Assembly: GCF_022965805.1 (NCBI RefSeq)
Contig: NW_027331260.1
Coordinates: forward strand, 434,001 to 498,000
Direction of reading: 5' to 3'
Length of the DNA stretch: 64,000 nt
From: Primulina eburnea
Taxonomy: Eukaryota; Streptophyta; Magnoliopsida; Lamiales; Gesneriaceae
The position numbers and the translations under genes were made by a program. Of the stretch, positions 3,440 to 64,000 are shown piece by piece. Each line of letters begins with the position of its first letter. The stretch's first letter is position 1. The notes beneath the pieces are model-generated. The model was not told the origin of the DNA. It saw only the letters and a list, made by a program, of their open reading frames with translations, and ran no database searches.

Positions 3440-4193
3440 TGTGGGGACCCGGACGCTAATTCATCTCTTAATCGTTCTTGGAAATAATTGGATCAATTCA
3501 ATACACTGGGTCTAATTTTTTTTTTCTTAAATCTGGTTTTGATTATACGATGTCTAATATATCAAGAACATCATATATTAATCATATATGATTCCTTCAA
3601 TATCATATTTTCAAATCATAACAAAACTTAGTAAAACTTACGTCTGTGTGAAGACGCTAACACGAGGATCATAGAAATATATTCAGATCGAAATTCTGAC
3701 AAGCGGATCTTGCAATAAAATTCATTTCCTCTTATTTGAAGCAATTTTCTCCAGAACTTCTCATCCCTTTTCTGCCTGAATTTGCTGAAGGAATTGCAAC
3801 ATTTATACAAACACTTTGCATGAAAAAACATGTGGCTAACTCTATGCACTGCACGTCTCGCGCATATGCGCGACCCTCCTCGGCACATATGCGTGAGACA
3901 TTCTGTCTCGGCGTATGTCTTCTCGGCAGCTCGCTCATATGCGCGAGACCTACTGTCACGGCTGCACATGTTCGCGCATATGCGCACACCTCCTTCGCAC
4001 ATATGCGCGAGGTTCTCTGCCTATCTCGCGCATATGCGCGCCTCCTGCTCGCACATATGCGCGAGGGGTTCTGTCCTCACACATCAAATATCACTTGACA
4101 ACTCAAATCAAGTCTCGGAGGGGTTCTTCATAATCATATCAATTCAAAATCAATAATCACAAATTAACATGATATAAAATCTCGGGCATTACA
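3440..4193 (-). repeat. R1 LTR shared by two tandem R1 copies
   Basis: This 754-bp LTR reads TGTAATGCCC... to ...GGTCCCCACA on the minus strand. A primer-binding site and gag (R1a) lie on its left, and a polypurine tract and integrase (R1b) on its right. It therefore serves as the 5' LTR of R1a and the 3' LTR of R1b. It holds a GC-rich dyad array (3859-4063) upstream of a TATA-like box (3801-3807, minus). Its end sequence is shared with the R5, R7 and R8 LTRs. It is much shorter than theirs (1.8-2.2 kb). Confidence 0.85.
3801..4063 (-). promoter_or_regulatory. R1 U3 dyad array plus TATA-like box
   Basis: Copies of CGCGCATATGCGCG, exact or degenerate, have CATATG cores starting at 3863, 3886, 3912 (as CGTATG), 3936, 3977, 4000, 4031 and 4054. 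They fall into four pairs with 23, 24, 23 and 23 bp between starts. On the minus strand a TATAAAT at 3807-3801 follows about 50 bp downstream of the last dyad, with an AGCCAC and a CATGCA between. This layout is that of a U3 promoter. The binding factor is unknown. Confidence 0.65.
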
Positions 4194-4208
4194 TTTCTCC
4201 CCTCCAAG
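4194..4208 (-). other. R1b polypurine tract
   Basis: Minus strand reads CTTGGAGGGGAGAAA immediately before the LTR start TGTAATGCCC. This is the expected second-strand primer site. Confidence 0.85.
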
Positions 4209-4278
4209 ATACGATTTCGTCCCCGAAATCACAGACAATCAAATCATATCAAATAAGAAGGTATAATAGAAACTGAAT

Positions 4279-5492
4279 AGAAAAATCACATCAATTAAAC
4301 AACTCGGGAAATCTCTGTCTCATATCTGATTCAGTTTCCTAGGTAGCTTCTTCAATGCTATGACGACTCCACTGAACTTTCACAAGCGGAATAGTCTTCG
4401 TTCTGAGTAGCTTTTCTTTACGATCGAGAATCTAGATCGGCTTCTCGAAGTAACTCAGTGTCTCATAAAGTTCGGCCTCGCCTGGCTGAATAATATGAGA
4501 TGCATCAGGAATATAATTCCGCAATAAAGACACATGAAAGACATCATGTATTCCAGATAGAGAAGACGGTAATGCGAGTCGATAGGCACGATCTCTTATC
4601 TTCTCGAGAATCTTGTACGACCCAATATAATGTGGAGACAACTTCCCTTTCTTGCAAAATCTGAAAACTCCTCTGAAAGGTGAAATCTTCAAGAAATACT
4701 CTGTCTCCTGCCTCAAATATCACTGGTCTACGTCGAACATTGTTATATTTGTCCTGTATGTCCTGAGATGTCTTCATTCTCTTCTGAATCAGCTTCACTT
4801 TTTCAGTCACCTCTCGAATCATATCAGGTCCAATCTCAGGTTCCTCCGATATATCATCCCATTACAGAGGGGATCTACACTTCTTGCCGTACAACGCCTC
4901 AAACGTTGCCATCTCAATACTCGTCTGATAGCTGTTGTACGAAAACTCGCAAAACGGCAAAGATTCTTGCCAACTAGTGCCAAAATCTAGCACTACAGCT
5001 CTAAGCATATCCTCCAGTGTCTGGATAGTCCTCTCTGGTTGTCCGTCGATCTGTGGATGATATGCGGTACTCAGATGTAACTTTGTACCTAGAGCCTGCT
5101 GTAAACTGTGCCAAAAATGCGAAGTAAACCGAGGATCACGGTTTGATACAATCGACTTCGGCACTCTGTGCACTCTGACCACTTCTCTGACATAGATCAC
5201 TGCCATCTGGTCATGTCTGTATGTCATCTTTTACGGAATAAAGCATGTAAATTTGGTCAATCTGTCAATAACGACCCAAATCGTATCACAATCTCGGGAG
5301 GAACGCGGTAACTTCGTCACGAAGTCCATGGAAATGTGATCCCATTTCCATTCAGGAATAGACAAACTCTGTAATAGACCTCCTGGTTTCTTTCTTTCCG
5401 CTTTTACCTGATGGCAATTCGGACAGTTGGATACAAATTTAGAAATATCAACTTTAATCTGTTTCCACCAAACTGTCTTTTCAAATCATTGT
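4279..5492 (-). pseudogene. R1b integrase core, C-terminus and chromodomain-like tail
   Basis: Minus-strand continuation of the R1b pol cut by R2 at 5492/17121. It carries the end of the zinc region ([13 protein letters not shown] near 5410), the core with MDFVTKLPRSS and IDRLTK, then [15 protein letters not shown], where the catalytic Asp of SDRD is Asn. The [10 protein letters not shown] stretch keeps the core Glu. After 4862 the frame shifts, and the GPY/F-like region and the tail (VKVQWSRH, EAT then a stop in place of Trp) follow to about 4279. Integrase would insert cDNA; the tail may target chromatin. Several stops and frameshifts make it inactive. Confidence 0.85.
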
Positions 5493-8400
5493 TGTAAGGC
5501 CCAAAATTAAGACAACGTAATCCAACTGCATGCAAATCTAAGAAATATGAAAAATGAGTAATTAATTACTTTTAATTGCTAATTAATTATGTGACATACT
5601 TGTTTATATGTTAAATGAGATTTTTATTGTCATCATGCATAAAATGGTATTTTTAAGGAATAGTCAAACGACGATCGAGGAACGGTGACCGAGGGCTGAA
5701 AAATGTAACATGTTTTTATTAAATAATTATTTTTAATTATTTAAAATATGGTGGTCGCTTCTAGTATTTTTGAAATTTAAGGGTTTTGAGGTGATTTTAT
5801 ACGCCGGGGCGTAAACTTTATCGGTGTTGGTTTTCAACTAAAATGCGAGATTTTTGGGCAACCCGACTAATAAATTCACATGTTTAATTAAACAAAAAAA
5901 CTTTGTATATTTTATTTAAATCCTAATTAAACTAATGGGCTTAATTAGAAGGCTTAATAGGCCTAAGCCTTAATTAGTTGAATTATGTAGTATATAATAT
6001 ATTAAACCCTATTCTAGCAACAAAAATAATCGGCCACTATTTTTTTAAATCAAAAAACTCTCCCCAACCCCCACCACACACGGCAACAGACATACACATC
6101 ACTTTGAAGGATTTTGGGAAGGGTTTTCGAAGGTAGTTAGCAAGAACAAGCCAAAGTCGTCTCCCGTTCTTCGTCGTCAACGTATATACGAGCGTATATA
6201 ACGCAAAGGCACGCCTTAATCTTCCTTTTCTCATCCATCATGTCATAATATGTTTTTTTAAAGTTTTTGTATGAAGCATGAAAACCAAAGTTGCTGCCTT
6301 TGTTTCCCTTTTTCATGATTTATGTATCTCTTATTGCATGCCATGTTACACGTTTTTTTGTTATACTAAGGGGCTGCCATGATGTCTAAGCATGCTTAAG
6401 CATAACTTTGGTATGAATTGAAGTCCCTAACACCACGCATTACTCGACAGAAATAAATAATAGAAGGAACGAGAAAAAGCTGAACCCTAGAAGCTGCTGT
6501 CAAGAGCATGGGGTTCGGTTTTTGTTGTGCAGGGGCTAGGGCTTGGTTGGCTCGTTCCAGGGGCTATCCAAGGACATGAGTGAGTCAGGGACGGAGTCCT
6601 AGCCACGCTAGGACTCGTGCTCTAAGGCAGGGAAAGATTCTTAGCAAGCTAGGACTCGCACCCGAGAAGCAAGGGAACGCGTGCAGGGTTCTGTACTTCG
6701 CACAAGCTTGGGGGCTCGGTTCAGGGGTCCTGGGCCGGGTCAATTCGAGTCCGTAGGTGGTGCAAAACAGGTTGGTTCGGTGGCTGGGTTCATGGGTAGG
6801 GGCAAGGAAGCTTGATCAAGAGTCCTTGTCCAACAAGGTGTCTTGGCCAGCTTTTGGTAAGGGGGTAGGGGGCTCGTTTTTGAGTCTAGGATGGTTTTCT
6901 TGATGAGGTTAGAGTCCAGTAGGTTAATTTAAGATGTTGGTCAAGTTTTGGACCAACATGGTTCGGGGGTAACTCGTGAAAATCGGAAGTTGGCTTGGGG
7001 TCGAAGTTTAGGTGTCATAATAAGCTCTTCAAAATAAAGAAAAATTGGAAAACGGCTAACGGGTGTCGAGTCATGGTCCATAAGGGTTAAAATAGTATAA
7101 AAAGACTAAATTATGAATTTAGGAATTTTATATTGAAGTTTGAAATTTTTCGGGATTAAAACACCGTCAAAACAATTAATTAAATATAAATGTAAATGTC
7201 TAATATTTAAACTAAATAAAATTATGGAAAAATTAATGTAAGCTTAAATAATTATTTGGGACATGTTATAGTCAATAAATCTAGAAAAAAAGTCAAAACG
7301 GGAGATTTTACGTCAAGGGGTAAAAGAGTCATTTTACACTAGAAATTAGTAAAGGTCATGGCAGTGCCCTAAATGCTGTTTTTATGGTATTATGATTATT
7401 TTAATTGTTTATAAAATGTTCATGATTAAATTATGATTTTTAAATGTCTATTTGATTTTTATGATTCAAGGAAGACATTTAAAATATATGTTGCATGCTT
7501 GGTTTCAAAATGAAAAATGCAAATATTATTCATGATTTTTCTAAACTGATGGGAATGAAAAATGTTGAAGGAAGAGAAGTGATTGTGAATAATTTGTTAA
7601 TGATGGCGATGTCGTGAGGGTGATGGTCCCAGTGGGAGCCCGACGATCGAGTTTCCATTATTGCGAATATGAGGTTATGAGGATAGGAGGTTTGAGGTAA
7701 GAATGAGAATATCGTGAGGGGAGAAGGCCCCAGAGGGAGCCCATTTATGGGAGAAGGCCCAAGAGGGAGCCCCGACGATCTTATTTTTATTCGATCATGA
7801 TAGGCCAGGGCCCAGTTGACCGATGAGAGTGTTGCTGGTGTTCCCCGCCACCCAGTATTGTGGTTACATGTAGATGGATCCATCGACTTTTGAGGTTTGA
7901 GGAAAGTCACAATTAACGATCTGAATTCAACAAAGGAAAAAGGAAAACTGTTTATGATCATGAAAAATGTTTATATCATGTCATGTTGAGGAAAAAAGGA
8001 AAAAAAAAGGTTAAGGTTTATGAAATGCAAGTCATGAAAATGTTTATTCTTAAGTTTAAGCATCATGAGAATATTTATGAAAATGATTATGTTTGAAATT
8101 TATGCATCTTCATGAAAACGATATTTTAAGTACAAGTATTTTTCACTGTTATGTTGACTGTATTACGTATTATTTGTTATAAAGATTATGGTGTGTTGAG
8201 TCTTTAGACTCACTAGATGTGATGGATGCATGTGAGGTTGAGGGAGGTCTTGACGGATGATTTGACTGGACTGATGGCACACACAACCCGAGGACCAGCG
8301 CTTCTATCTTTCCGCATTTACGATTATAACTCATGATTTATGTTAGAGATATTTAAGATTATTTATTTATGTTTTTGAGAGATTTTTGAGAGGTTTAGTA

Positions 8401-8629
8401 TGTGCTATTCTTTTCAAATTATTGCTTTCTTTAGGTTTGGTAAAACAGTAGACGATTTTATTTTGTGACTATTTCACTTGATTTTTAAATGCTAGTTGGC
8501 TGATGTTTTATTTTAAAAGGGGCAAAATATTTTATAAAAAATATTTTAGGGAAAGCCGAAGTTTAGAAAATTTTTTTAAAAAATATATTTTTAGTACTTT
8601 TAAAGCAATAAAAAGGCCGAGACGTTTCA
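5493..8629 (+). repeat. R2 5' LTR
   Basis: 3137 bp, TGTAAGGCCC... to ...ACGTTTCA. It matches 13998-17120 nearly base for base, with scattered substitutions. A TATA-like TATATAATAT lies at 5991-6000, just after a GGCCTAAGCC dyad. Other structures: a GAGTCCTAG/CTAGGACTC inverted repeat at 6594-6616, and GAGTCTTTAGACTC at 8198-8211, also found in R4 and R6. Long LTRs of this size are usual in Tekay/Del elements. No credible gene lies in it; its short open frames recur in the 3' LTR only because the LTRs are copies. Confidence 0.92.
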
Positions 8630-8631
8630 GT

Positions 8632-8643
8632 TGGTATCAGAGC
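8632..8643 (+). other. R2 primer-binding site (initiator tRNA-Met)
   Basis: TGGTATCAGAGC begins two bases after the LTR end. It is a perfect 12-base match to the usual tRNA-Met primer site. Confidence 0.92.
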
Positions 8644-13997: not shown

Positions 13998-16900
13998 AGT
14001 AAGGCCCAAAATTAAGACGACGTAATCAAACTGCATGCAAATCTAGGAAATATGAAAAATGAGTAATTAATTACTTTTAATTGCTAATTAATTATGTGAC
14101 ATACTTGTTTATATGTTAAATGAGATTTTTATTGTCATCATGCATAAAATGGTATTTTTAAGGAATAGTCAAGCGACAATCGAGGAACGGTGACCGAGGG
14201 CTGAAAAATGTAAAATGTTTTTATTAAATGATTATTTAAAATTATTTAAAATATGGTGGTCGCTTCTAGTATTTTTGAAATTTAAGGGTTTTGAGGTGAT
14301 TTTATACGCCGGGGCGTAAAATTTATCGGTGTTGGTTTTTCAACTAAAATGCGAGCTTTTTGGGCAACCCGACTAATAAATTCACATGTTCAATTAAACA
14401 AAAAAACTTTGTATATTTTATTTAAATCCTAATTAAACTAATGGGCTTAATTAGAAGGCTTAATAGGCCTAAGCCTTAATTAGTTGAATTATGTAGTATA
14501 TAATATATTAAACCCTATTCTAGCAACAAAAATAATCGGCCACTACTTTTTTAAATCGAAAAACTCTCCCCAACCCCCACCACACACGGCAGCACACATA
14601 CACATCACTTTGAAGGATTTTGGGAAGGGTTTTCGAAGGTAGTTAGCAAGAACAAGCCAAAGTCGTCTCCCGTTCTTCGTCGTCAACGTATATTCGAGCG
14701 TATATAACGCAAAGGCACGCCTTAATCTTCTTTTTCTCATCCATCATGTCATAATATGTTTTTTTAAAGTTTTTGTATGAAGCATGAAAACCAAAGTTGC
14801 TGCCTTTGTTTCCCTTTTTCATGATTTATGTATCTCTTATTGCATGCCATGTTACACGTTTTTTTGTTATACTAAGGGGCTGCCATGATGTCTAAGCATG
14901 CTTAAGCATAACTTTGGTATGAATTGAAGTCCCAAACACCACGCATTACTCGACAGAAATAAATAATAGAAGGAACGAGAACAAGCTGAACCCGAGAAGC
15001 TGCTGTCAAGAGCATGGGGTTCGGTTTTTGTAGTGCAGGGGCTAGGGCTTGGTTGGCTCGTTCTAGGGGCTATCCAAGGACATGAGTGAGTCAGGGACGG
15101 AGTCCTAGCCACGCTAGGACTCGTGCTCTAAGGCAGGGAAGGAGTCCTAGCAAGCTAGGACTCCCACCCGAGAAGCAAGGGAACGCGTGCAGGGTTCTGT
15201 ACTTCGTACAAGCTTGGGGGCTCGGTTCAGGGGGCCTGGGCCGGGTCAAGTCGAGTCCGTAGGTGGTGTAAAACAGGTTGGTTCGGTGGCTGGGTTCATG
15301 GGTAGGGGCAAGGAAGCTTGATCAAGATTCCTTGTCCAACAAGGTGTCTTGGCCAGCTTTTGGTAAGGGGGTAGGGGGCTCGTTTTTGAGTCTAGGATGG
15401 TTTTCTTGATGAGGTTAGCGTCCAGTAGGTTAATTTAAGATGTTGGTCAAGTTTTGGACCAACATGGTTCGGGGGTAACTCGTGAAAATCGGAAGTTGGC
15501 TTGGGGTCGAAGTTTAGGTGTCATAATAAGCTCTTCAAAATAAAGAAAAATTGGAAAACGGCTCACGGGTATCGAGTCATGGTCCGTAAGGGTTAAAATA
15601 GTATAAAAAGACTAAATTATGAATTTAGGAATTTTATATTGAAGTTTGGGATTTTTCGAGATTAAAACACCGTCAAAACAATTAATTAAAGATAAATGTA
15701 AATGTCTAATATTCAAACTAAATAAAATTATGGAAAAATTAATGTAAGCTTAAATAATTATTTGGGACATGTTATAGTCAAGAAATCAAGAAAAAAAGTC
15801 AAAACGGGAGATTTTACGTCCAGGGGTAAAACAGTCATTTTACACGAGAAATTAGTAATGGTCATGGCAGTGCCCTAAATGCTGGTTTTATGATATTATG
15901 ATTATTTTTAATTGTTTATAAAATGTTCATGATTAAATTATGTTTTTAAATGTCTATTTGATTTTTATGATTCAAGGAAGACATTTAAAATACATGTTGC
16001 ATGCTTGGTTTCAAAATGAAAAATGCAAATATTATTCATGATTTTTCTAAAGTGATGGGAATGAAAAATGTTGAAGGAAGAGAAGTGATTGTGAATAATT
16101 TGTTAATGATGGCGATGTCGTGAGGGTGATGGTCCCAGTGGGAGCCCGACGATCGTGTTTCTATTATTGCGAATATGAGGTTATGAGGATAGGAGGTTTG
16201 AGGTAAGAATGAGAATATCGTGAGGGAAGAAGGCCCCAGAGGGAGCCCATTTATGGGAGAAGGCCCCAGATAGAGCCTCGACGATCGTATCTCTATTCGA
16301 TAATAATAGGCCAGGGCCCAGTTGACCGGTGACAGTGTTGCTGGTGTCCCCCGCCGCCCAGTACTGTGGTTACATGTAGATGGATCCATCGACTTTTGAG
16401 GTTAGAGAAAAGTCACAATTAACGATCTGAATTCATCAAAGGAAAAAAGAAAAATGTTTATGATCAAAAAAAATGTTTTATGTCATGTCATGTTGAGGAA
16501 AAAGGAAAAAAAAAGGTCAAGGTTTATGAAATGCAAGTCATGAAAATGTTTTTGCTTAAGTTTAAGCATCATGAGAATATTTATGAAAATGGTTATGTTT
16601 GAAGTTTATGCATCTTCATGAAAACGATATTTTAAGTACAAGTATTTTTTACTGTTATGTTGACTCTATTATGTATTATTTGTTATAAAGATTATGGTAT
16701 GTTGAGTCTTTAGACTCACTAGATGTGATGGATGCAGGTGAGGTTGAGGGAGGTCTTGACGGATGATTTGACTGGACTGATGGCGCAAACAACCCGAGGA
16801 CCAACGCTTCTACTTTTTCCGCATTATGATTTATGATTCATGATTTACGTTAAAGAATTTTAAGATTATTTATTTATGTTTTGAGATATTTTTGAGAGGT

Positions 16901-17120
16901 TTCGTATGGGCTATTCTTTTCAATTATTGCTTTCTTTAGGTTTGGTAAAACAGTAGACGATTTTATTTTGTGACTATTTAACTTGATTTTTAAATGCTCG
17001 TTGGCTGATGTTTTATTTTAAAAGGGGCTATTTTAGGGAAATCCGAAGTTTAGAGGATTTTTTTTTTGAAAAAATTCTTTTTTAGTACTTTTAAAGCAAT
17101 AAAAAGAGCGAGACGTTTCA
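13998..17120 (+). repeat. R2 3' LTR
   Basis: 3123 bp. It starts AGTAAGGCCC where the 5' LTR has TGTAAGGCCC, so the first base is mutated, and ends ACGTTTCA. Two perfect hairpin arms GAGTCCTAG/CTAGGACTC lie at 15100-15122 and 15142-15163; in the 5' LTR the second copy is eroded. GAGTCTTTAGACTC is at 16704-16717. Confidence 0.92.
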
Positions 17121-17125
17121 GTTGT

Positions 17126-17378
17126 ACAATTTTATGCCACCAGGATGAATACTAAATCGACTGCTATGTGCTTTTGACAATATTTGTCGTTTCAAATCTG
17201 AAACATCTGGCAAAACAAGACGATTATTTACATACACTACACTATAATGTACCTGATATTCTGATCGATGCCCTGCTCTGACCATCGAAATCGAGTCTTG
17301 AACATTCTGATCAACTTTCTGAGCCGCTTTAATTTTCAAAATCACCTCTGGTTCAACTTGTACGGTATAAAGTTGCAA
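17126..17378 (-). pseudogene. R1b integrase N-terminal zinc region
   Basis: Minus-strand frame with [37 protein letters not shown] and [15 protein letters not shown], where R2 cuts it. The matching segment in R7 is near 42,590-42,800. The rest of the zinc region is on the other side of R2, just below 5492. Confidence 0.85.
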
Positions 17379-17393
17379 CGTTTTACAATCTGT

Positions 17394-18044
17394 CTAAAAT
17401 ACCAATCCCAAAAGACAGCAATCTTCAATCAAATTTGAAACACCAATCGTCGATAAGGATAAAGAACATACCTTTCGACTCAGTGCATCAGCTGATGCAT
17501 TTGATTTTCCCGGATAGTACTTGATTTCACAATAAAAATCTTTAAGCAAATCAAGACATATTCGTTGTCTCATATTCAGCTCTGACTGTGAAAACAGATA
17601 CTTCAAGCTTTTATGATCAGAATATATCTCAAACTTCTCACCGTATAGGTAATGTCGCCATATCTGCAGTGCAAAAACAATGGCCGCCAATTCAAGATCA
17701 TGAATTGTGTAGCGAGTCTCATGTGGCTTCAACTGTATCGAGGCATAGGCAATCACATGTCCCCGCTGCATCAAAACACAACCTAATCCTCTGTGAGAAG
17801 CATCACAATAAACAACAAAATCACCAGTATCTAATGGGATAGTCAATATCGGAGCACTGGTTAATCTCTTCTTCAACTCTAAGAAGCTGGATTCACACTC
17901 TTCTGATAAAAAAAACGGTGCATTCTTCTGAGTCAACTGAGTGATCGGCTTAGCAATACTGGAGAAATCTTTAATGAATTGTTGATAGTAACCTACTAAA
18001 CCCATAAAACTGCGTATTTCGGGTAAGATGTCGGTCTCGGCCAA
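17394..18044 (-). pseudogene. R1b RNase H domain
   Basis: It reads [61 protein letters not shown] and SADALSRKV. The catalytic Asp, Glu and Asp positions are all kept, unlike R1a where the Glu is Lys. It follows RT by a frameshift near 18030. Confidence 0.88.
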
Positions 18045-18959
18045 CTGATCACGACCTCAACTTTGCTAGGATCAACAGAAATCCCATCACCAGATATAAT
18101 GTGACCCAGAAATGCAACCTGTCTCAGCCAAAACTCACATTTTGAAAGCTTGGCATATAATTTCTCAACCCTCAGAGTTCTCAATACAGTTCTCAAATGC
18201 TCAGCATGATCAATCATATTCTTCGAATAAATCAAAATATAATCGATAAAAATAATCACGAAATCATCAAGATACTTCTGAAACACACGGTTCATCAGAC
18301 CCATAAATACAGTTGGAGCATTTGTTAAACCCAACGGCATGACTATAAACTCATAATGGCCATACCTGGTTCTAAACGCTATCTTCGAGATATCAGAATC
18401 TCTGACTCTCAGCTGATGATATACGGATTTCAGATAGATCTTGGAATACACAGAAGAACCCGGCAACTGATCAAATAAATCATCTATACGAGGCAAAGGA
18501 TATTTATTCTTTACCATAGCCTTGTTCAGTCATCGGTAGTCAATGCAGAGTCTCATTGAACCGTCTTTTTTTCTCACAAACAACACTGGAGCACCCCAAG
18601 GAGAAACACTCTGTCTGATGTATCCTTGGCCAGTAAATCATCTAACTGCTTTTTCAGTTCAATCGGTGCCATTCTGTACGGACTCTAGAAATCGGAACTG
18701 TACCTGGTACAAATTCAATGCTGAAGTCTATCTCTCGAATCGGAGGCGAACCCGTAATCTCATCTGGGAAGACGTCAGGAAACTCACATACCACTGGTAA
18801 GTCTGCCAATGATGGACTCGACTTCAGTACATCTACTGAATAGACAAGGAATCCCTCTGCTCCTTTCTGTAATAGTAGAGACATAGATAATGCAGATATC
18901 AAAGGAAACCTTACCGTAAAATTTCCATTCATCAGCCATATCAGGTCTGAATCGTACAA
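17996..18959 (-). pseudogene. R1b reverse transcriptase domain
   Basis: It is split over two frames (18959-18654 and 18517-17996). Motifs: [52 protein letters not shown], and FIDYILIYS. The first catalytic Asp is Tyr, as in R1a, and the second Asp of FIDD is also Tyr. RT activity is therefore excluded by residues as well as by frameshifts. Confidence 0.88.
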
Positions 18960-19439
18960 TCTTATGGAAACAGTCTACAGTAGCTCTGTACTTGGTCAGC
19001 ATATCAATACCGATAATACAAAATCAGACAAACCAAGTACAATACAATCTAACTCAATTTCATGCCCGTCATATTGTAGCATATAATGTTTCACAGAATT
19101 CACTGATATCAATCCTGTCCCCAGTAGAGAAGAGACAAACACTACATCAGATAAATACTCAACAGGCAATGAATGAATCAATGCAAATCGTTCAGAAATA
19201 AATGTATGAGATGCACCCATATCAATCAATATGTAAACAGGGTAACCACAAAGAGAGCAGTTATTTGCATCAACATCATCTGGTGCTTCTTGTGCCTGTT
19301 CCTTAGTCAAAGCAAATACTCTGGTCTGCTGTCTAGGAGGATGGCTAACTTTCTGGCTTCCACCTGGCTTTGGCTGTGACTGGGCTGGTGCTGGCTGGAA
19401 AGAATGAACAGCTGATGATCGTCTATTAGTCTGAGCCAC
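18960..19439 (-). pseudogene. R1b aspartic protease domain
   Basis: Frame 19439-18996 contains a Q/P-rich linker, the EEQAQEAPDDV-like segment (here KEQAQEAPDDV), and LIDMGASHTFIS, where the active-site Thr of DTG is Met. A small deletion near 19015 shifts the frame before [14 protein letters not shown]. Confidence 0.85.
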
Positions 19440-19505
19440 TGATCCAGCTGATTCTGCTACCTGGGATCCTTGGGAACCTCTCTGTGGACATGCTCTAGCA
19501 AAATG
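19440..19505 (-). pseudogene. gag: R1b gag end, cut by R3
   Basis: On the minus strand the last visible codons read HFARACPQRGS, the end of the CCHC knuckle. R3 starts at 19506 in the middle of this motif, so the rest of R1b gag should lie beyond the right edge of the window. Confidence 0.75.
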
Positions 19506-19773
19506 TGTAATAGCCTAGCCTGGTGAACGGTACGGTTTAAGATTTCGTATGATTATTGACTATTTGGTAAGTTTTAGTATAGTTTTGATGTTAAGAGTTG
19601 CGATTTAATTCATGGTAATTCGTATGTTGAGCCAATTGGTATGAGGCCAATTGGGGTGGATAGATAAGTTATAGAGGTTCAACTTTCTTGTTGAGAGTGT
19701 TGCCGAATTATGAGGAGAAGCGGCGTTGCGATTCGATTTTAGTTGCAAAAGTTTGTTGTTGGCTACAGAGGTG

Positions 19774-19939
19774 ACCGCACCCGCGGTCAGTTAGCCACCG
19801 CACCCGCGGTGTTTGGGCAGAGACCAGACCGCACCCGCGGTCAGTTTTGTAGCGCACCTGCGGTCGACTTTTTCAGATTTTCGGTTGTTGTCCAGTACAC
19901 GCAGCGCACCCGCGGTAAGATCAGTAGCACACCCGCAGT
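19774..19939 (+). promoter_or_regulatory. R3 5' LTR dyad array (ACCGCACCCGCGGT type)
   Basis: Six copies, exact or with 1-3 changes, start at 19774, 19797, 19828, 19851, 19903 and 19926. They form three pairs each spaced exactly 23 bp. Two copies show C-to-T or G-to-A changes at CpG sites. The regulatory role is inferred from position and from the same arrangement in R7 and R8. Confidence 0.6.
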
Positions 19940-20644
19940 AGTGAACAGTAGAGTCGTGTTTTACGGTTTTAAGTGATTAAATGCAAGAGTTGGCTTCATT
20001 TTCCTCATTTCTTCTCCTAGTTCTCGGTTTGTAGCTCAAGGGGAAAGCTAGGGTTCCATTTTCTTTCATTTCCTTCCTTTGATTATAGCTTCTTGTTGGA
20101 TATTCGAAGGATGAACAAGATAGTTTTGGGTTCAAGGAGCTAAGGTAAGCTTGTGGTATATTTTATTCTTGGTTTTTGATGTTGGGAGAAATTATGGATT
20201 ATTGAGTGTGTTGGCTTTATAGGTTTTGTGGTATGGGTTTGTGATTATTGAGATGTTGATGGTTCATTATATGGTTTATTGTTGTAGGAAGTGTACCAAG
20301 ATAATAGAATAAAGTGATCGAAGTGTAGTAAGTGGAATTCATTTCCTTGTGCTCACATGATAATATATGTATTGTGTTTCAATGGTTTTAACATGTTATT
20401 CCCTTCCATTTCATTCATGCTATGTATTAATGCACTTTGTTGTATATTAGAGGCATTTTATGTCTCAATTATGTCAAAGGTAATACAAAAGAAAAGAGTA
20501 TGCAAAGTTTTTGGTTTAATGCCTAAAAGAGAGTTCAAATGATTTATCGGACTGATAGATACATAGTCAGAGATTGAATGCAATTAGTTGATCAACGACC
20601 ATAGGCTTATATCCCAACAGAGTATCGATTTATATCGATGGGAT

Positions 20645-20960
20645 ATAGGTACAGAGACAGAGATGCTATTTAGATATCAATCCATCAGAGAAAAGAGAAA
20701 TACCATCTTTATTGTTATTCATGCTATGATATTTATGTTTCAGAGTTGATGGTATTCAATGTTTTCAAAGTCATGTTTTTCAGAGTATGCTATGTATTCA
20801 TTATAGGTACAGAGACAGAGTTGCTATTTAGACATCAATCCATCAGAGAAAAGAGAAATACCATCATTATTGTTATTCATGCTATGATATTTATGTTTCA
20901 GAGTTGATGGTATTCAATGTTTTCAAAGTCATGTTTTTTAGAGTATGCTATGTATTCATT
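20645..20960 (+). repeat. 158-bp tandem duplication inside R3 5' LTR
   Basis: The segment 20645-20802 is repeated at 20803-20960 with a few changes; both copies contain GGTACAGAGACAGAG and TTTCAGAGTTGATGG. The corresponding part of the 3' LTR lies outside the window, so it is unknown whether this arose before or after insertion. Confidence 0.85.

Positions 20961-25176: not shown

Positions 25177-25180
<4 letters not shown>

Positions 25181-25239
<59 letters not shown>
25181..25239. repeat. (TA)n microsatellite in R5 left LTR
   Basis: About 58 bp of alternating TA beside the dyad array, at the position of the TATA box in the related R7 and R8 LTRs. The right LTR has the same at 48809-48863, followed by (CA)n. 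Confidence 0.92.
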
Positions 25240-25243
<4 letters not shown>

Positions 25244-25283
25244 GCATGCAAGGCAAGTGGCTTAATGTGCTTACTGCACGTCT

Positions 25284-25408
25284 CGCGCATATGCGCGACA
25301 CTACTCGGCCCGTAGCATCACCGCAACTCACGCATATGCGCGCCCCATCGTCGCGCATATGCGCGAGACCTACTATCTCGGCATACCACCATTTGCGCAT
25401 ATGCGCGC
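25284..25408 (-). promoter_or_regulatory. R5 left LTR dyad array, part 1 (CGCGCATATGCGCG type)
   Basis: CATATG cores start at 25288, 25333, 25356 and 25398; 25333 and 25356 are 23 bp apart. The partner of the first copy has been deleted compared with the right LTR. R6 inserted exactly at a CGCGC in the last copy. The array continues at 34095-34168. Confidence 0.6.
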
Positions 25409-39206: not shown

Positions 39207-39211
39207 ACATG

Positions 39212-44658: not shown

Positions 44659-46467
44659 TGTGATGCCTGAGATTCTTGTAGATAGTTGAATACGAAACGC
44701 AAGAACAGACGGGGCGAAACGATGCGAGAAAATAGGAAATTTTAGCTGTGCAAGACCGCACCCGCGGTCTGGCAAGCACCGCACCCGCGGTGCAATGAGC
44801 AGAAAATTAGTGAATTCCCGTAGCCACACCGCACCCGCGGTGTTTAGATGACCGCACCCGCGGTCATCACTTGTGAAAAATAAAAAGTTCTGCCGAGAGC
44901 ATGGCGCACCCGCGCTCCTAAGAGCACCGCACCCGCGGTCATGCGTGGCTTTTGAATAATAAGCCATGTGTTTGTTTTCATGCAAGATATATATAGTGTT
45001 GTCTTCATTACCTTCCTTGGAACATCAGATGACCGAGAGCAACTAAGAGAATTCAGCAAGTTCTTCCAAGTTTCATTTGCTAGTTTTACAAGATTCGATT
45101 ACCCGAATTTAGTTCCGAGTTCGGATTTGAGTTCCTGGCATCAAGAACTTCAAAAGGGTATAATTTTTATGTCTTTTCAGCCTGTTTTGAAGTTGACATG
45201 TTGGGGAAATTCTGATATGATTGTGAATATATGTTATTTAGATCATATATGTTATAGAATCGAAAACGTATCGAAGAAATGTTATCATATGCAAATTATA
45301 TGAATTTCCAGCATATATATGTTGAGCTTATGCGAAATTTCAGAGTTTTAAGTGAATATGATTGGATTATGAGTTGAGGATGTTATAGTGTTGTTATCTG
45401 TTGAGACTTGGATTGACCGGTGTTAAGAATATACGTCGTTATTCCGTCAAAGTCTATACCGAGATTGATTATTGATAGTGTAGGTCTTGACTAGAATTAA
45501 TAATTAATTGTATATTCATTATACATTTCCATTTCAGATTCGTATTGTCAACCGTGACAGCAACTGTGCAACGAAAGGTATAGTACATGTTTTGTTTGGG
45601 GAATCACGACTCAAGTGAGATCACATTTGAGTTTCCCAAACAAAATCACATACTTGTTTTATTGTTTATATCTAGATATGATTATAATTGTTTATGGATT
45701 TGTTTATAGAACTGCTATACAAATCTTGCTATGCTTTGTTTACAGATCATGTGACATTGCAGTAGAATGATTATGCTTGTTTACAGATTGTGTATTCATG
45801 CATTAAGATAGGACAGTCTGGAGATCAGGCAGACTTCTAGACGTTCGGCGATATCACAGCTTAGGGGAAGATCACCGCCCCTATTGTAGACGCGGATATA
45901 GATCAGGCCGAAGTCTAGGAATAGGACGGTCAGCACCTCGATTGGGAGGGTAGGTGACAGACAGTGCCGTCTTATTCACAACGGGATCCCTAGAGTTCTA
46001 GTCGAGTCGCGTCTAGACATGATTAGACTCGCATTGCATGATTATATATGAATGACATTCATATTAGCATGTTTCATGTTTTAGATTGTTTTAATGCATG
46101 TATACATGTTTATACTGGGATTTGTTCTCACCGGTTTTCCGGCTGTTGTTATGTCTGTATGTGTGCATAACAACAGGTGGGGCAGGATCTGGGTCGAGAC
46201 AGAGACGAGATTGATATAGCGTGGAGACTACGGGCGCAGCAGAGGACTAGTGTTTTACTCGCTTTGTACTGCTTGTAGATAGTGGTTTGTTTAAACACTA
46301 GTTGGTTGAATGTAGTAAAACAAGACTTGTTGTATGTTTGTAAAATAAATAAGAACTTATGTTTGTTGTTTACATTTGAGTTAATGTAAGAGCGAAAATT
46401 TGACCCACTTTTTATATTAATGATCCATTTAATCCCAAGAAAAAGAATTAGAGCCCGGGTCCCCACA
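44659..46467 (+). repeat. R7 3' LTR
   Basis: 1809 bp. Its dyad array is at 44755-44939; here the second and third dyads are perfect where the 5' LTR has single changes. Confidence 0.95.
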
Positions 46468-46472
46468 ATTTT

Positions 46473-47037: not shown

Positions 47038-47049
47038 GCTCTGATACCA
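47038..47049 (-). other. R5 primer-binding site
   Basis: Minus strand reads TGGTATCAGAGC, a perfect match, five bases from the LTR. Confidence 0.92.
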
Positions 47050-47054
47050 CCTGT

Positions 47055-48807
47055 TGTGGGTCTCGGGCATTAATCCAATTCTTAATCATCATTAGGATCA
47101 ATGTACTAATTCAAATAATTTGGGTCATAAAAAAAATTCTTTAAATGCGGAACGTAATGGAATGAAATAATATACATATTCGTATAAAATAAAGTACAAG
47201 TCCTATACGGTCTACATTCAATAAAAACTAAGGTTTAACAACTAATTATCAAGTATTCAAACCCTATCTTTAATCCAAGTCCGTAGTCTCCACTCTAATC
47301 ATGATCTCCCTCTTCTTGTCTTGACCCTGATCCTGTCCCATCTGTTTTCATGCACACATACAAACAGGACAACAGCCAGATAACTCCGGTGAGAATTATA
47401 TTCCCATTATAAATCATGTATACATGCATTTCCAATAAACCATATAAAAAAATGAAATAAACATTCATAAAATATATCAAATCAGAAACTTAAATCAATA
47501 CAAACTCTGAATATAACATGTATCAAATCCGACACATGAATCAACACAGACTCTGAATCACATTCCGTGACTCCTGGACTTTAACTCGACGCGTCCTAAT
47601 CTAAGGATCCCGATCGGAATAAGAACATACACCCACCTACACTCCCAATCGGGGTGGTGATATGTTCTTATTCAAGGACTTTGGCTCTTTCCATATCGAA
47701 CATCAGTAATAGAAGAAACTCCAATTCTATCCACTCCAATATAGCCAAACGTCCGGCAGATGTTGGTATTACATATCGAACATCAGTAATAGAAGAAACT
47801 TCAATTCTATCCACTTCGATATAACCAAACATCTGATGTCTTGACCTATCCGCCACAGACTTTGGCATTTTCACCAATATCCTATCTTGTGATAATGTGC
47901 AATGTGCTAGTGACGATTCCATCACTACCCGGCACTACTGTCACAAGATTACTCATGTACGACTAGACGTATCCGCCTATGACTCAGTACATAAATCAAT
48001 AAATCAAAGATATCAATATAATTCAATTGCAAATAACAATGCAATAAAATAAAGTATGTGATTTTGGGAGACTCAAGTCGAATCCAACTTGAGTTGTGCC
48101 ATCCCGCATCAACATTAATTTATAGCTTTCGTTCTGTTGCTCTGATTCTGTCGAAGTCTCGAACATACTGCCTATCTATATCAATCTGGAAACAACAATA
48201 TCAATACACTGTATCAATGTATAACTCAAATCAAGACCTGTTCTGATCGATACTCAACTTAAAACATATTCTGATCAATGTCACGATCGAACGATACAAT
48301 CATGATCAATACTGAATCTGATCGATACCAATCTACTGATATTTCAACGGCATAGTAATACAATCTCGATAATCCCGTCCATTTCAATATCACATATATA
48401 ATATCACAACTCATAATCGGTATCAATTACATTTATAATCTCAATAATAACATATTGTAATACCAAATCTGTACAATCCCAGTCATATTACTTCAGAAAT
48501 TCATAACAATTGTATAAACAATCTGTTCTTTGATCTGACTTCGATTATATACTGAGCAATATATCTAGAACACATAATATCAGTCAAATCACAATTTCCC
48601 CAATATCATAATTTCAAACGATATCAGAACTCAATGAAACTTATGTCCTGTTGTAGCTGTCGTTGCTAGGAACTCAGTACTGAAGTCGGATTGAAAATCG
48701 TACGGGCGGATATCTCGCAAATCACAAAATAAACGTCGGAGAATCTTAAGTTGGCTTCCCAGATATTCCTTCTGCTTTTCTTCCTTTTGTTTCTAAGGAA
48801 TTGTACG

Positions 48808-48880
<73 letters not shown>

Positions 48881-49297
48881 GCATGCAAGGCAAGTGGCTT
48901 AATGTGCTTACTGCACGTCTCGCGCATATGCGCGGCACTACTCGGTACATATGCGCGAGACAATGTGTCTCGGTGCGTAGCATCACCGCAACTCGCGCAT
49001 ATGCGCGCCCCATCGTCGCGCATATGCGCGAGACCTACTTTCTTGGCATACCACCATTCGCGCATATGCGCGCCTCCAGCCGCGCATGTGCGCGCAATGT
49101 TTTTCCTACCTCGCGCATATGCGCCCGGCAGGGTCGCGCATATGCGCGAGGGCTCCTCCTCGCACACAATGTCCAATCTTCTTTCGCTCTCCCGGTCTGA
49201 TCCGTTCCGTCTATAAACACATTTTAATTATCAATAGATCATAATAATTATTGCCGAATCATTTCAAATTACGGTAATCAAATTCTCGGGCCTTACA
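47055..49297 (-). repeat. R5 5' LTR (right)
   Basis: 2243 bp, matching 23418-25408 plus 34095-34318. It retains dyads that the left LTR has lost. The 3' terminal bases differ (TGTGGGTCTCGGGC on the plus strand against TGTGGGGACCCGGAC on the left). Confidence 0.9.
48809..49148 (-). promoter_or_regulatory. R5 right LTR dyad array and TA tract
   Basis: CATATG (or CATGTG) cores start at 48925, 48948, 48998, 49021, 49063, 49085, 49116 and 49139: four pairs spaced 23, 23, 22 and 23 bp. The pair-to-pair steps (73, 65, 53) partly match R1 (49, 65, 54), so the two arrays are probably of common origin. An (AT)n tract at 48809-48863 with (AC)n stands about 57 bp downstream on the minus strand, where related LTRs have a TATA box. 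Confidence 0.65.
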
Positions 49298-52488: not shown

Positions 52489-52618
52489 TGTAATGCCCAG
52501 GAATTATAGAATTGATAAACCAAGATTATTAATCTTCTTTAACGTGAGACTCAGAAGATATGAGAATGCATGACATGTAATGAGGGAAGAGAAGACATGA
52601 GAAAATAGGGTTTGCAAG

Positions 52619-53003
52619 ACCGCACCCGCGCCCAGAACAGGAGTGCACCCGCGGTCATGCAATTGTGGATTTTTGCAAGAAATGCCGAAGCATTACCGCA
52701 CCCGCGGTGCAACCAAGACCGCACCCGCGGTGCATGGACAGAAAGTTGGAAAATTTATTCGAAGCAAGACCGCACCCGCAGTGCGAGAAGGACCGCACCC
52801 GCGGTGGTGTGACCGCACCCGCGGTGGTGTGACCGCACCCGCGGTAAGAACATGACCGCACCCGCGGTCGCTGAATTTCAGAAAATGATAAGCATGCCGA
52901 AGCATGAGCGCACCCGCGGTGCATGACACGACCGCACCCGCGGTCATGCGTGTAGCATGAAAAATAAGCCACGTTTTCAGATTGTGCATGCAGTATATAT
53001 ATA
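52619..53003 (+). promoter_or_regulatory. R8 5' LTR dyad array and TATA box
   Basis: ACCGCACCCGCGGT-type dyads start at 52619, 52642, 52695, 52718, 52769, 52792, 52812, 52832, 52855, 52907 and 52931. Spacing inside pairs is 23 (last pair 24), between pairs about 51-53, with a local run at 20-bp steps. The TATA box begins 50 bp after the last dyad, preceded by AAGCCACG and CATGCA. Confidence 0.7.
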
Positions 53004-53850
53004 GAAGCATGACACGTTTTCTTCAGAATTTCAAAGGGGAAACCGAAAGCTTTGGAGAAAAGTTGATTTCTTAAGTTAGAATTTGATTTACAAAGATCCG
53101 TATATCAGAATTCGAATCCGAAAGCAGTATCGTGCTCCTTTCGCTACGAGCTACACAAGGACGTAAGTTTTGTTACATTTTGAGATGTTTTGGAAATATG
53201 ATGCTACTAAAATCGACTATGATTCAGATATGGTGTTTCTGCTACCGTAGATATTATAGAATTAAAGTCAGATTAAAGAACAGATTGTTTCTGTAATTGT
53301 TATGATTTTCGAAAGATATTGACTGAGATTTTGATATCAGAATTGTGTATTAATGATTTTGAATATACCGATATTCAGATTATGAGTTCCAGTATTATAT
53401 TTGTGATGTTCAGATTGACGGGGTTATTCAGATTGTATTGTTATGCCGTCGAAACATCAGTTGATTTAGATTGATCAGATTTAGAAATGATTTCGAATTA
53501 TATTCTGATGTCACTGATATGAATTGAATTGTGTCTTGTTCAGATATTGATCAGATTATGTACTGAGTTGAGTATTGATCAGAACAGATTGTGTATTGAA
53601 TTATTCACTGACACAGTGTATTCGTTATTGTCATTTCAGATTTGATATGGACAGATTTGAATACAGATCATCGTCTTCGTCAGACCAGGAAGACAAAGGT
53701 ATAAATTAATGTTGAGTTGGGATTGCACAACTCGAGTGAGGTTTGACTCGAGTTTCCCTAAATCACATACTTAGTTTATTACATTGATACTTGTAACTAA
53801 TGAGATTGATGTTTGTAGGCTATTGATTCATAGCCACTGCATGTATTGAT

Positions 53851-54050
53851 TACTGAGTCGTTTAGTCATGGGATGATTCGCCTAGTCACCGGTTGATTCG
53901 TCTGGTTATTGGCTGATTCGCCTAGTTATTGACTGATTCGTCTAAACTTTGGCTGATTCGCCTAGTCACTGGCTGATTCGTCTAGTTATTGGCTGATTCG
54001 CCTAATTCTTGACTGATTCTTCAATTCTGCGGCTGATTCGCCCAGACACT
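53851..54050 (+). repeat. 20-bp minisatellite in R8 5' LTR
   Basis: About ten units with TGATTCG every 20 bp, alternating CCTAG and TCTAG types so that a 40-bp order is visible. The 3' LTR has the same at about 59941-60140. The related R5 LTR has only a single related unit (near 24325), so the expansion is specific to the R8 line. Confidence 0.88.
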
Positions 54051-54737
54051 GGATATATGAATTATATCGATGCCGTGTAGGAATTGATTCATTCCTATCG
54101 ACTGAGATTCAATATAATTATCAATATCCAGACATCGGGATCCCTAGGTTAGAGTTGAGTCGAGTCTGAGACGACGCGTCAATGGAGTCGAGTCTGAGAC
54201 GACGCGTTGGTTGGGTTGAGTCTGATACGACATGTTGATTTACATTGTTTATATCATTCATGTTTATTGAATGCTTGATATTGATTTATGTTTCTGATTT
54301 GATACTTGTTATGAATATTGCTTATATGCTTTCGTATATGCTTCTATATGATTGCATGTATACATTGTTTATACTGGGATATTTATATCTCATCGGAGTT
54401 ATCCGGATGTTGTCTTGTTTTGTATGTGTGCATGACAACAGATGGGACAGGATCAGGGTCAAGAAGATGATGAGAGAAGACGAATTAGCGTGGTGATTCC
54501 GGACTTATTGTAGACTTGGTTTTATTACTTGAACTTTAGTAGTTGAACCTTAGAATAGTTGAAAGACTGTTGTACTATTATACTGAAATGTAGTTTTATA
54601 CAGATACGTATATGCCATTACCTTCCGCACTGTTATTTTAAAAAGAAAAAAATTTTAGACCTTGTTTTATCTGAATTGATAATTAAATCCCAAAGATGAT
54701 TAAGAAGAAAGATCAGCGTCCGGGTCCCCACAACAGG

Positions 54738-58621: not shown

Positions 58622-60831
58622 TGTAATGCCCAGGAATTATAGAATTGATAAACCAAGATTATTAATCTTCATTAACGTGAGACTCGGAAGATATGAGAAT
58701 GCATGACATGCAATGAGGGAAGAGAAGACATGAGAAAATTGGGTTTGCAAGACCGCACCCGCGCCCAGAACAGGAGTGCACCCGCGGTCATGCAATTGTG
58801 GATTTTTGCAAGAAATGCCGAAGCATCACCACACCCGCGGTGCAACCAAGACCGTACCCGCGGTGCATGGACAGAAAGTTGGCAAATTTATTCGAAGCAA
58901 GACCGCACCCGCGGTGCGAGAAGGACCGCACCCGCGGTGGTGTGACCGCACCCGCGGTCGCTGAATTTCAGAAAATGATAAGCATGCCGAAGCATGAGCG
59001 CACCCGCGGTGCATGACACGACCGCACCCGCGGTCATGCGTGTAGCATGAAAAATAAGCCACGTTTTCAGATTGCGCATGCAGTATATATATAGAAGCAT
59101 GACACGTTTTCTTCAGAATTTCAAAGGGGAAACCGAAAGCTTTGGAGAAAAGTTGATTTCTTAAGTTAGAATTTGATTTACAAAGATCCGTCTATCAGAA
59201 TTCGAATCCGAAAGCAGTATCGTGCTCCTTTCGCTACGAGCTACACAAGGACGTAAGTTTTGTTACATTTTGAGATGTTTTGGAAATATGTTGCTACTAA
59301 AATCGACTATGATTCAGATATGGTGTTTCTGCTACCGTAGATATTATAGAATTAAAGTCTGATTAAAGAACAGATTGTTTCTGTAATTGTTATGATTTTC
59401 GAAAGATATTGACTGAGATTTTGATATCAGAATTGTGTATTAATGATTTTGAATATACCGATATTCAGATTATGAGTTCCAGTATTATATTTGTGATGTT
59501 CAGATTGACAGGGTTATTCAGAATGTATTGTTAAGCCGTCGAAACATCAGTTGATTTAGATTGATCAGATTCAGATATGATTTCGAATTTTATTCTGATG
59601 TCACTGATATGAAATGAATTGTGTCTTGTTCAGATATTGATCAGATTATGTACTGAGTTGAGTATTGATCAGAACAGATTGTGTATTGAATTATTTACTG
59701 ACACAGTGTATTCGATATTGTCATTTCAGATTTGATATGGACAGATTTGAATACAGATCATCGTCTTCGTCAGACCAGGAAGACAAAGGTATAAATTAAC
59801 GTTGAGTTGGGATTGCACAACTCGAGTGAGGTTTGACTCGAGTTTCCCTAAATCACATACTTAGTTTATTACATTGATACTTGTAACTAATGAGATTGAT
59901 GTTTGTAGGCTATTGATTCATAGCCACTGCATGTATTGATTACTGAGTCGTTTAGTCATGGGCTGATTCGCCTAGTCACCGGCTGATTCGTCTGGTTATT
60001 GGCTGATTCGCCTAGTTATTGACTAATTCGTCTAAACTTTGGCTGATTCGCCTAGTCACTGGCTGATTCGTCTAGTTATTGGCTGATTCGCCTAATTCTT
60101 GACTGATTCGTCAATTCTGCGGCAGATTCGCCCAGACACTAGATATATGAATTATATCGATGCCGTGTAGGAATTGATTCATTCCTATCGACTGAGATTC
60201 AATATAATTATCAATATCCAGACATCGGGATCCCTAGGTTAGAGTTGAATCGAGTCTGAGACGACGCGTCAGTGGAGTCGAGTCTGAGACGATGCGTTGG
60301 TTGGGTTGAGTCTGATACGACATGTTGATTTACATTGTTTATATCATTCATGTTTATTGAATGCTTGATATTGATTTATATTTCTGATTTGATACATGTT
60401 ATGAATATTGCTTATATGCTTTCGTATATGCTTCTATATGATTGCATGTATACATTGTTTATACTGGGATATTTATATCTCACCGGAGTTATCCGGCTGT
60501 TGTCTTGTTTTGTATGTGTGCATGACAACAGGTGGGACAAGATCAGGGTCAAGAAGATGATGAGAGAAGACGAGTTAGCGTGGTGATTCCGGACTTATTG
60601 TAGACTTGGTTTTATTACTTGAACTTTAGTAGTTGAACCTTAGAATAGTTGAAAGACTGTTGTACTATTATACTGAAATGTAGTTTTATACAGATATGTA
60701 TATTATGTAGATGCCATTACCTTCCGCACTGTTATTTTAAAAAGAAAAAAATTTTAGACCCTGTTTTATCTGAATTGATAATTAAATCCCAAAGATGATT
60801 AAGAAGAAAGATCAGCGTCCGGGTCCCCACA
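58622..60831 (+). repeat. R8 3' LTR
   Basis: 2210 bp. Its dyad array (58752-59034) has 9 copies against 11 in the 5' LTR. TATATATATA is at 59084-59093. A ten-base insertion near 60700 is absent from the 5' LTR. Confidence 0.93.
58752..59093 (+). promoter_or_regulatory. R8 3' LTR dyad array and TATA box
   Basis: Dyads start at 58752, 58775, 58828, 58851, 58902, 58925, 58945, 58997 and 59021: pairs at 23, 23, 23 and 24 bp plus one extra copy at 20 bp. The TATA box follows 50 bp after the last dyad, as in the 5' LTR. Confidence 0.7.
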
Positions 60832-62702: not shown

Positions 62703-63150
62703 AAGAGTTATGCTGATGTGAGACGAAGGCCGTTGCAGTTTGTGGTTGGTGATCACGTGTTCTTGAAGATTGCACCTTTTAAGGGTGTGATGCGGTTTGG
62801 CAAGAAGGGAAAGTTGAGTCCGAGATTTATTGGCCCATTTGAGATCTTGGATAGAGTTGGTGATCGAGCTTACAGGTTAGCCCTACCGCCAGATCTTGAT
62901 AGAGTTCATAATGTTTTTCATGTCTCCATGCTCAGGAAGTATATTGCAAATCCTTCCCATGTTCTTCGCCACGAGCCATTGGATTTGACGCCGAATTTGA
63001 CGTACCAAGAGGTTCCAGTTCAGATTCTGGATCGCAAATTTAAAGTGTTGAGAAACAGAGAGATTGACATTATTATAGTCTTTTGAAGGAATCATTTGAT
63101 TAAAGAAGCCACGTGGGAACCAGAGGATGACATAAAAAGAGAATTATCCT
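62703..63150 (+). pseudogene. R3 integrase C-terminus and broken chromodomain-like tail
   Basis: Same frame as the core after the 62700 stop: [48 protein letters not shown]. The frame ends at 63086. The EATWEPEDD part of the tail is visible just after in another frame (about 63100). Confidence 0.87.
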
Positions 63151-63195
63151 GAGTTTTTTGTGCAGTGACGTCAATTTCGAGGGCGAAATTACTTT

Positions 63196-63208
63196 AAGGA
63201 GGGGAGAT
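63196..63208 (+). other. R3 polypurine tract
   Basis: AAGGAGGGGAGAT directly before TTTAATAGCC, the 3' LTR start (5' LTR reads TGTAATAGCC). Confidence 0.87.
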
Positions 63209-64000
63209 TTTAATAGCCAAGCCTGGTGAACGGTACGGTTTAAGATTTCGTATGATTATTGACTATTTGGTTAAGTTTAAGTATAGTTTTGATGTTAAGA
63301 GTTGCGATTTAATTCATGGTAATGCGTATGTTGAGCCAATTGGTATGAGGCCAATTTGGGTGGTTAGATAAGTTATAGAGGTTCAACTTTCTTGTTGAGA
63401 GTTTTGCCGAATTATGAGGAGAAGCAGCGTTGCGATTCGATTTTAGTTGCAAAAGTTTGTTGTTGGCTACAGAGGTGACCGCACCCGCGGTCAGTTAGCC
63501 ACCGCACCCGCGGTGTTTGGGCAGAGACCACACTGCACCCGCGGTCAGTTTTGTAGCGTACCTGCGGTCGACGTTTTCAGATTTTCGGTTGTTGTCCAGT
63601 ACACGCAGCGCACCCGTGGTAAGATTAGCAGCGCACCCGCGGTAGTGAACAGTAGAGTCGTATTTTACGATTTTAAGTGATTACATGCAAGAGTTGGCTT
63701 CATTTTCCTTATTTCTTCTCCTACTTCTCGGTTTGCAGCTCAAGGGGAAAGCTAGGGTTCCATTTCCTTTCATTTCCTTCCTTTGATTCTAGCTTCTTGT
63801 TGGATATTTGAAGGGTGAACAAGATAGTTTTGGGTTCAAGGAGCTAAGGTAAGCTTGTGGTATAGTTCATTCTTGGTTTTTAGTGTTGGGAGAAATTATG
63901 GATTATTGAGTGTGTTGGTTTATAGGTTTTGTGGTATGGGTTTGTGATTATTGAGATGTTGATGGTTCATTATATGGTTTATTGTTGTAGGAAGTGTACC
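63209..64000 (+). repeat. R3 3' LTR, cut by window edge
   Basis: The first 792 bases of the LTR, matching 19506 onward with scattered changes. Confidence 0.92.
63478..63643 (+). promoter_or_regulatory. R3 3' LTR dyad array
   Basis: Starts at 63478, 63501, 63532, 63555, 63607 and 63630: exactly the 23, 31, 23, 52, 23 spacing of the 5' LTR. Individual base changes differ between the two LTRs. Confidence 0.6.

Follow-up and report, generated by a model that had tools for sequence, protein, structure and literature searches.

We analyzed a 64,000-nucleotide stretch of Primulina eburnea DNA (contig NW_027331260.1, positions 434,001 to 498,000; hereafter the window). Self-comparison and reading of the ends of long terminal repeats (LTRs) showed that the window is plant-type DNA (38.9% GC) built of nested LTR retrotransposons. 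In five of these elements (C, D, E, G, and H), each LTR carries an array of a GC-rich dyad 14 bp long, present in 6–11 copies, and these arrays are the subject of this study. Element C, on the minus strand, has an LTR of about 751 bp (~3443–4193, ends approximate) flanked on both sides by internal sequence of the same family; element A (LTRs at 5494–8633 and 13999–17124) lies inside it. Element D, on the plus strand, begins with a 5′ LTR at ~19505, and its 3′ LTR starts at ~63211 and runs past the window end. Inside D are found H (plus strand; LTRs at 52489–54732 and 58622–60831) and E (minus strand), whose upstream LTR copy is at 47049–49297, the other (23412–25408 plus 34090–34318) being split by element F (~25409–34089). 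Element G (plus strand; LTRs at 37399–39207 and 44659–46468) also lies inside E. The domains of G Pol are ordered as reverse transcriptase (RT; RVT_1, 104–262), RNase H (327–451), and integrase (zinc domain, 564–619; rve, 640–734), which indicates Ty3/gypsy; the nest consists of Ty3/gypsy LTR elements.

Two types of dyads were found: P (CGCGCATATGCGCG) in C and E, and Q (ACCGCACCCGCGGT) in D, G, and H. The arrays noticed by the first-pass annotation are real, as the window contains 19 P and 40 Q sites at two mismatches or fewer, compared with 0.05 and 0.06 expected, respectively. Each of the 40 Q sites is on the plus strand, like its host element. No P or Q site was detected at this threshold in A or F, and the dyads are confined to LTRs here. 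A general scan for perfect 5-4-5 dyads with a copy (four mismatches or fewer) 22–24 bp away returned 16 pairs, namely 15 P/Q pairs and an AT-rich one at 49308; the same scan on ten simulated windows returned one pair in total.

The P arrays lie on the minus strand, at 3859–4063 in C (7 dyads) and at 48921–49148 in the upstream LTR copy of E (8 dyads); in the other E LTR, the array is cut by the F insertion into a downstream half (25284–25408) and an upstream half (34090–34168). The Q arrays lie on the plus strand, with 6 dyads in each LTR of D (5′, 19774–19939; 3′, 63478–63643) and of G (5′, 37495–37679; 3′, 44755–44939), and with 11 and 9 dyads in the 5′ (52619–52944) and 3′ (58752–59034) LTRs of H. 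The F insertion falls within a P dyad, and its 5-bp target duplication, GCGCG (25404–25408 and 34090–34094), is half of the palindrome. A second tandem array, made of 20-bp units (TAGTCATTGGCTGATTCGCC), is present downstream of the Q array in the H LTRs (53852–54052 and 59943–60140).

A P array was also identified outside the window. A protein search using the translated C array as a query detected P0121, a 128-aa sequence from an 809-bp ENA contig, with an E value of 0.093 that is not significant alone. We accepted it given the way its sites are spaced and a 44% match, over 112 positions, to a translated frame of the E array. The codons of P0121 permit 11 P sites with at least 12 of 14 bases, compared with a mean of 1.05 and a maximum of 4 in 300 shuffles. 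The translated Q array had no match in the protein search. Among viral contigs, the Q pair pattern gave no matches, and the single match to the P pair pattern was rejected, as it reads as an unrelated phage contig with simple alternating repeats.

The spacing of the dyads is far from random. Counting a single LTR for each element (we excluded the sister copies E5, G5, H3, and D3 as well as off-register overlaps, and kept sites with 3 mismatches), the successive start-to-start gaps, in bp, were 23, 31, 23, 41, 50, and 23 in C; 23, 31, 22, 42, 23, 50, and 23 in E; 23, 50, 23, 52, and 23 in G; 23, 53, 23, 51, 23, 20, 20, 23, 52, and 24 in H; and 23, 31, 23, 52, and 23 in D. In P0121, they were 23, 51, 23, 51, 23, 42, 22, 31, 23, and 31. 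Gaps of 22–24 bp account for 18 of 33 in the window and for 23 of 43 once P0121 is added, and 20,000 random placements of the six arrays gave a mean of 4.26 and a maximum of 12 such gaps. The annotated 22–24-bp pairs are confirmed, but the description is incomplete: the other 20 gaps measure 20 (2), 31 (5), 41–42 (3), or 50–53 bp (10), and pairs recur at 53–54, 63–65, or 73–76 bp, with extra dyads at 20-bp steps in H. Gaps of 23, 31, and 50–53 bp are common to both dyad types. Cluster distances of 54, 64, and 74 bp match a 10.5-bp phasing (p ~0.02 compared with random sets of three distances, computed without a distance of 114 bp that reflects a missing dyad in C). A period scan of 17 distances, including the 114-bp one, gave a peak from ~9.75 to 10.5 (R 0.83–0.87). 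Because this peak is broad and the distances share ancestry, helical phasing of the dyad clusters is only a hint.

The arrays are found immediately upstream of a promoter. The last dyad is separated from the TATA box by 50 bp in C (TATA-like box GTATAAATG, 3800–3808, minus strand), 55 bp in E (start of a TA tract, 48854–48865, minus strand), 46 bp in G (GATATATATAG, 44986–44996, plus strand), and 48 bp in H (GTATATATATAG, 52993–53004, plus strand), close to the 50–57 bp first annotated. Homology across dyad types extends over the 130 bp downstream of the array, with alignment z-scores of 6.7 (C-G), 7.8 (C-H), 8.9 (G-H), 3.6 (E-H), 3.2 (C-E), 2.1 (E-G), and 3.7 (G-D); C-D, E-D, and H-D do not align over this stretch. 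By eye, the TATA box, CATGCAAG, and a stretch resembling AAGCCAC can be recognized as common landmarks. The TATA box of E lies within a long pure TA tract, with 29.5 copies (25180–25238) and 27 copies (48810–48863) in its two LTRs. The D promoter region (19505–20000 and 63211–63750) is G-like around ATGCAAGA and was seen by eye to be without the TATATATA stretch in both LTRs.

P and Q had been described as having no sequence in common. This did not prove to be the case, as 7 of 14 positions agree when the two are in register, CGCANNNGCG included. On the plus strand, all 48 occurrences of CGCANNNGCG are in arrays (0.7 expected); on the minus strand, 16 of 17 are, the other being at 12140. This shared core was rejected as a proof of kinship, as random GC-rich dyads reach 7/14 with a probability of 0.12–0.34. 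Clear homology between array spacers was detected only within a dyad type, for C-E (z 8.9) and G-H (z 4.6). The four P-Q comparisons among C, E, G, and H gave no homology (z −0.8 to 0.6), and the D spacers match none significantly (G-D, p 0.093; H-D, p 0.28; E-D, p 1.0), C-D being marginal (p 0.056). A single ancestral array for P and Q is thus unsupported, and the same gaps in both may come from a common constraint or from an old common ancestry.

The relationships of these elements were examined as unrooted four-way splits of C, E, G, and H, using contiguous internal pieces. The informative columns of gag-RT support CG|EH (133, compared with 25 for CE|GH and 12 for CH|EG), as do those of integrase (97, 21, and 10, respectively), and the other trees were rejected. 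The internal genes therefore group C and G together, and likewise E and H, across dyad types, as had been noticed. When D and A are added, that pair attaches to the G branch, so that C and G form no clade if the root is there. In R-U5, the part of the LTR downstream of U3 (255 columns), the counts are 6 for CG|EH, 15 for CE|GH, and 26 for CH|EG, and CG|EH is rejected (approximately unbiased (AU) test, p 0.002). The LTR history is thus unlike the coding history, which is backed by both internal pieces. On these trees, parts of the LTRs had histories different from that of pol, which is not surprising for LTR elements that recombine. Given a promoter side that is homologous across dyad types, spacers that are homologous only within a type, and the conflict between R-U5 and pol, the exchange of P and Q would most simply be explained by LTR recombination moving a whole array. 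The regulatory module proposed in the first-pass annotation would then be replaceable indeed, with entire arrays rather than individual sites being exchanged.

Based on the sequence features above, we favor, with moderate confidence, a reading in which the arrays are cis-regulatory, enhancer-like U3 modules of plant Ty3/gypsy LTRs, the dyad being a putative site for a dimeric host protein and the 23-bp pair a unit holding two dimers. This reading draws on the position of the arrays ahead of a promoter whose homology extends over C, E, G, and H, on the fixed pair spacing, on dyads that are conserved from family to family even though their spacers are near random, and on the different histories of LTR and pol. 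The (near-)symmetric 14-bp dyad would be the target of a host protein that binds DNA as a dimer, and two dimers would sit side by side on a pair, since 23 bp is about 2.2 turns. Located 46–55 bp ahead of the TATA box, the array would act as an upstream activator region that activates transcription, and lineages would have changed between P and Q arrays via recombination between LTRs.

Several observations weigh against this reading. No TATA box was seen by eye downstream of the D array. The R-U5 region fits best with a third grouping, CH|EG, although the region remains compatible with CE|GH, the grouping by dyad type (p 0.11). In the U3 flanks, which span 97 columns and are difficult to align ahead of the array, 2 informative columns support CG|EH, 7 support CE|GH, and 1 supports CH|EG, a lean toward dyad type that is not significant (CG|EH, AU p 0.089). 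The arrays share ancestry, so the 43 gaps are not independent observations. Finally, the Q spacers resemble each other more than expected, which means that the geometry was partly inherited from duplication.

This last point bears on an alternative in which the arrays are inert products of tandem duplication, a unit of 23 or about 75 bp having been multiplied by slippage or unequal exchange, with the geometry as its memory. The 9-bp spacers of Q are 0.331 alike, compared with 0.259 by chance (0 of 2000 shuffles were as high), and the signal is strongest in D (p 0.005), followed by H (p 0.046), with G at p 0.064; H also has three dyads in exact 20-bp steps. Duplication thus helped to build the arrays. 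However, the P spacers are at chance similarity (p 0.17), the same gaps occur with two dyad types, and within one array the dyads are 0.886–0.929 identical, compared with 0.29–0.48 for the 9-bp spacers. Arrays explained wholly by duplication of a unit with a conserved spacer are not what we found (spacers 29–48% alike, dyads 89–93%), even if the Q spacers still bear some mark of duplication. Duplication alone is insufficient, as something preserved the dyads, and we regard the inert version as unlikely. After insertion, the dyads do not seem to be shielded: between sister LTRs, they differ at 2 of 84 positions in G (rest of the LTR, 17 of 1725) and at 3 of 126 in H (rest, 38 of 2075), that is, no less than the rest in these two comparisons. 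The constraint on the dyads therefore most likely acts on elements that are still replicating.

The dyads could instead work as RNA hairpins. The element RNA carries U3 at its 3′ end, where each dyad would fold (5-bp stem, 4-base loop) for processing, packaging, or small-RNA production. Indeed, single dyads have predicted folding energies of −9.6 kcal/mol for Q (z −4.1) and −9.4 kcal/mol for P (z −2.8), and pairs have z-scores of −3.6 and −5.2 (4 sequences in all). One Q site in G is changed on both arms with its pairing kept (GGCGC...GCGCT), and the LTR palindromes of maize Sireviruses are, in the parts of the reports consulted, small-RNA hotspots (PMC5311732, PMC10760457). It should be noted that folding is a property of all GC-rich palindromes, so that stability is not informative here, and that no match to an Rfam family was found. 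Moreover, over 38 sites the change per position is 0.013 for the four loop bases and 0.066 for the ten stem bases, which is the opposite of a constraint on structure alone. Lower variability in the loop is expected if a protein reads all 14 bases, and thus speaks for base reading over a hairpin alone, although CpG decay in the stems contributes to the difference. We consider the hairpin explanation improbable.

Less probable still is a CpG-dense shield, in which the arrays attract or resist DNA methylation as CpG-rich stretches without any sequence-specific factor. The arrays have a GC content of 0.60–0.61 and a CpG observed/expected ratio of 1.18–1.66, compared with 0.33–0.37 and 0.36–1.07 in the downstream LTR, and Sirevirus motif clusters adjoin predicted CpG islands in the parts of PMC2829016 consulted. 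However, such a shield requires neither the exact 14-bp sequence nor the 23-bp pairs, and high CpG ratios are also seen ahead of the array, at 1.57 in E, 1.58 in G, and 1.29 in D. Least credible is an alternative in which P would serve FHY3/FAR1 as a double site. These plant regulators, derived from transposases, form dimers and recognize CACGCGC (PMC13306707, consulted in part), and P sites are often flanked, on the plus strand of the window, as CTCGCGC (7) or GCGCGAG (8), one base off that site, whose GC-rich core resembles half of P. However, a single exact CACGCGC was found in the window, at the F junction (34088), so that the site is not repeated; GCGCGTG does not occur, and Q differs from the FHY3/FAR1 site.

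A bolder version of the enhancer-like reading, which we advance only tentatively and would not bet on, is that P and Q correspond to two different specificities within a single class of dimeric host regulators that recognizes NNCGCANNNGCGNN. Two dimers 23 bp apart would co-assemble, the pairs would be offset by an integral number of helical turns (~54, 64, or 74 bp), and lineages would change regulator by trading whole arrays while the assembly geometry stays fixed, as a plug-in enhancer on a conserved socket.

The closest known system, judging from the parts of the papers compared here and below, is that of the repeated palindromic motifs (RM boxes) located upstream of the TATA box in the LTRs of Sireviruses, which are Ty1/copia elements; a regulatory role was proposed for them, and they were termed Sirevirus specific, being absent from the classic Ty1/copia elements compared (PMC2829016). 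As here, RM boxes are short, CpG-rich, dyad-symmetric palindromes present in many copies in the first half of the LTR, and their sequence varies between elements around a common core. The arrays described above share this layout, with 6–11 near-identical palindromes per LTR, in the first half and shortly before a TATA box in four of the five elements. However, Sireviruses have integrase before RT, whereas RT comes before integrase in G, as in Ty3/gypsy; the RM core is CGG-CCG, whereas it is CGC...GCG in both P and Q; and Sireviruses often have extra copies before an envelope-like gene, whereas the dyads here are in LTRs only. No spacing rule like the fixed 23-bp pairs was found in the parts of PMC2829016 compared. 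These elements are no Sireviruses, yet by this likeness they seem to work like them.

Two other systems are informative. In the Tnt1 superfamily, U3 evolution is modular and U3 differs among subfamilies with close coding regions (PMC1838419), so that U3 and coding modules have different histories, as here; those elements are, however, Ty1/copia, and what is described for them is U3 divergence rather than the swapping of two dyad arrays of one geometry. ONSEN and other COPIA families carry heat-responsive elements in their LTRs (PMC5059998), which are likewise clustered factor sites, duplicated into being and repeatedly lost, but the factor (HSFA2) is known and the short nGAAn units differ in sequence and spacing. 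In a literature search that left most subscription papers outside its reach, no plant or transposon paper was found for the exact dyad words, nor any report of the 23-bp pairing, P, or Q. The 23-bp pairing thus appears to be new, while palindromic arrays upstream of the TATA box were already known in Sireviruses. Palindromic LTR arrays, described as a feature of these Ty1/copia elements, are now seen in Ty3/gypsy with a rigid 23-bp pairing, which suggests that unrelated elements arrived at a common promoter design. A single promoter frame with two exchangeable arrays would also offer a concrete system to study how retrotransposons change host regulators and how silencing follows.

Some other features of the window are worth recording. 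In a protein search with G Pol, plant Ty3 polyproteins were the best-scoring matches, with at most 66% identity among the matches listed (best 120 of 8000 scored), and no relative was found in viral contigs. A Pfam Chromo domain, which would place an element among the chromoviruses, scored 22.1 bits in G, below the curated cut-off of 25.1, when eight open frames were profiled. Within G pol (43233–44352), a 562-bp head-to-tail repeat with 99.5% identity lies in a single open frame, and D contains two copies of a 158-bp unit (20644–20960, 97% identity). Finally, in the C regions (1–5493 and 17122–19504), positions 1–2296 and 17214–19504 are 92.8% identical, as if two elements shared one LTR.

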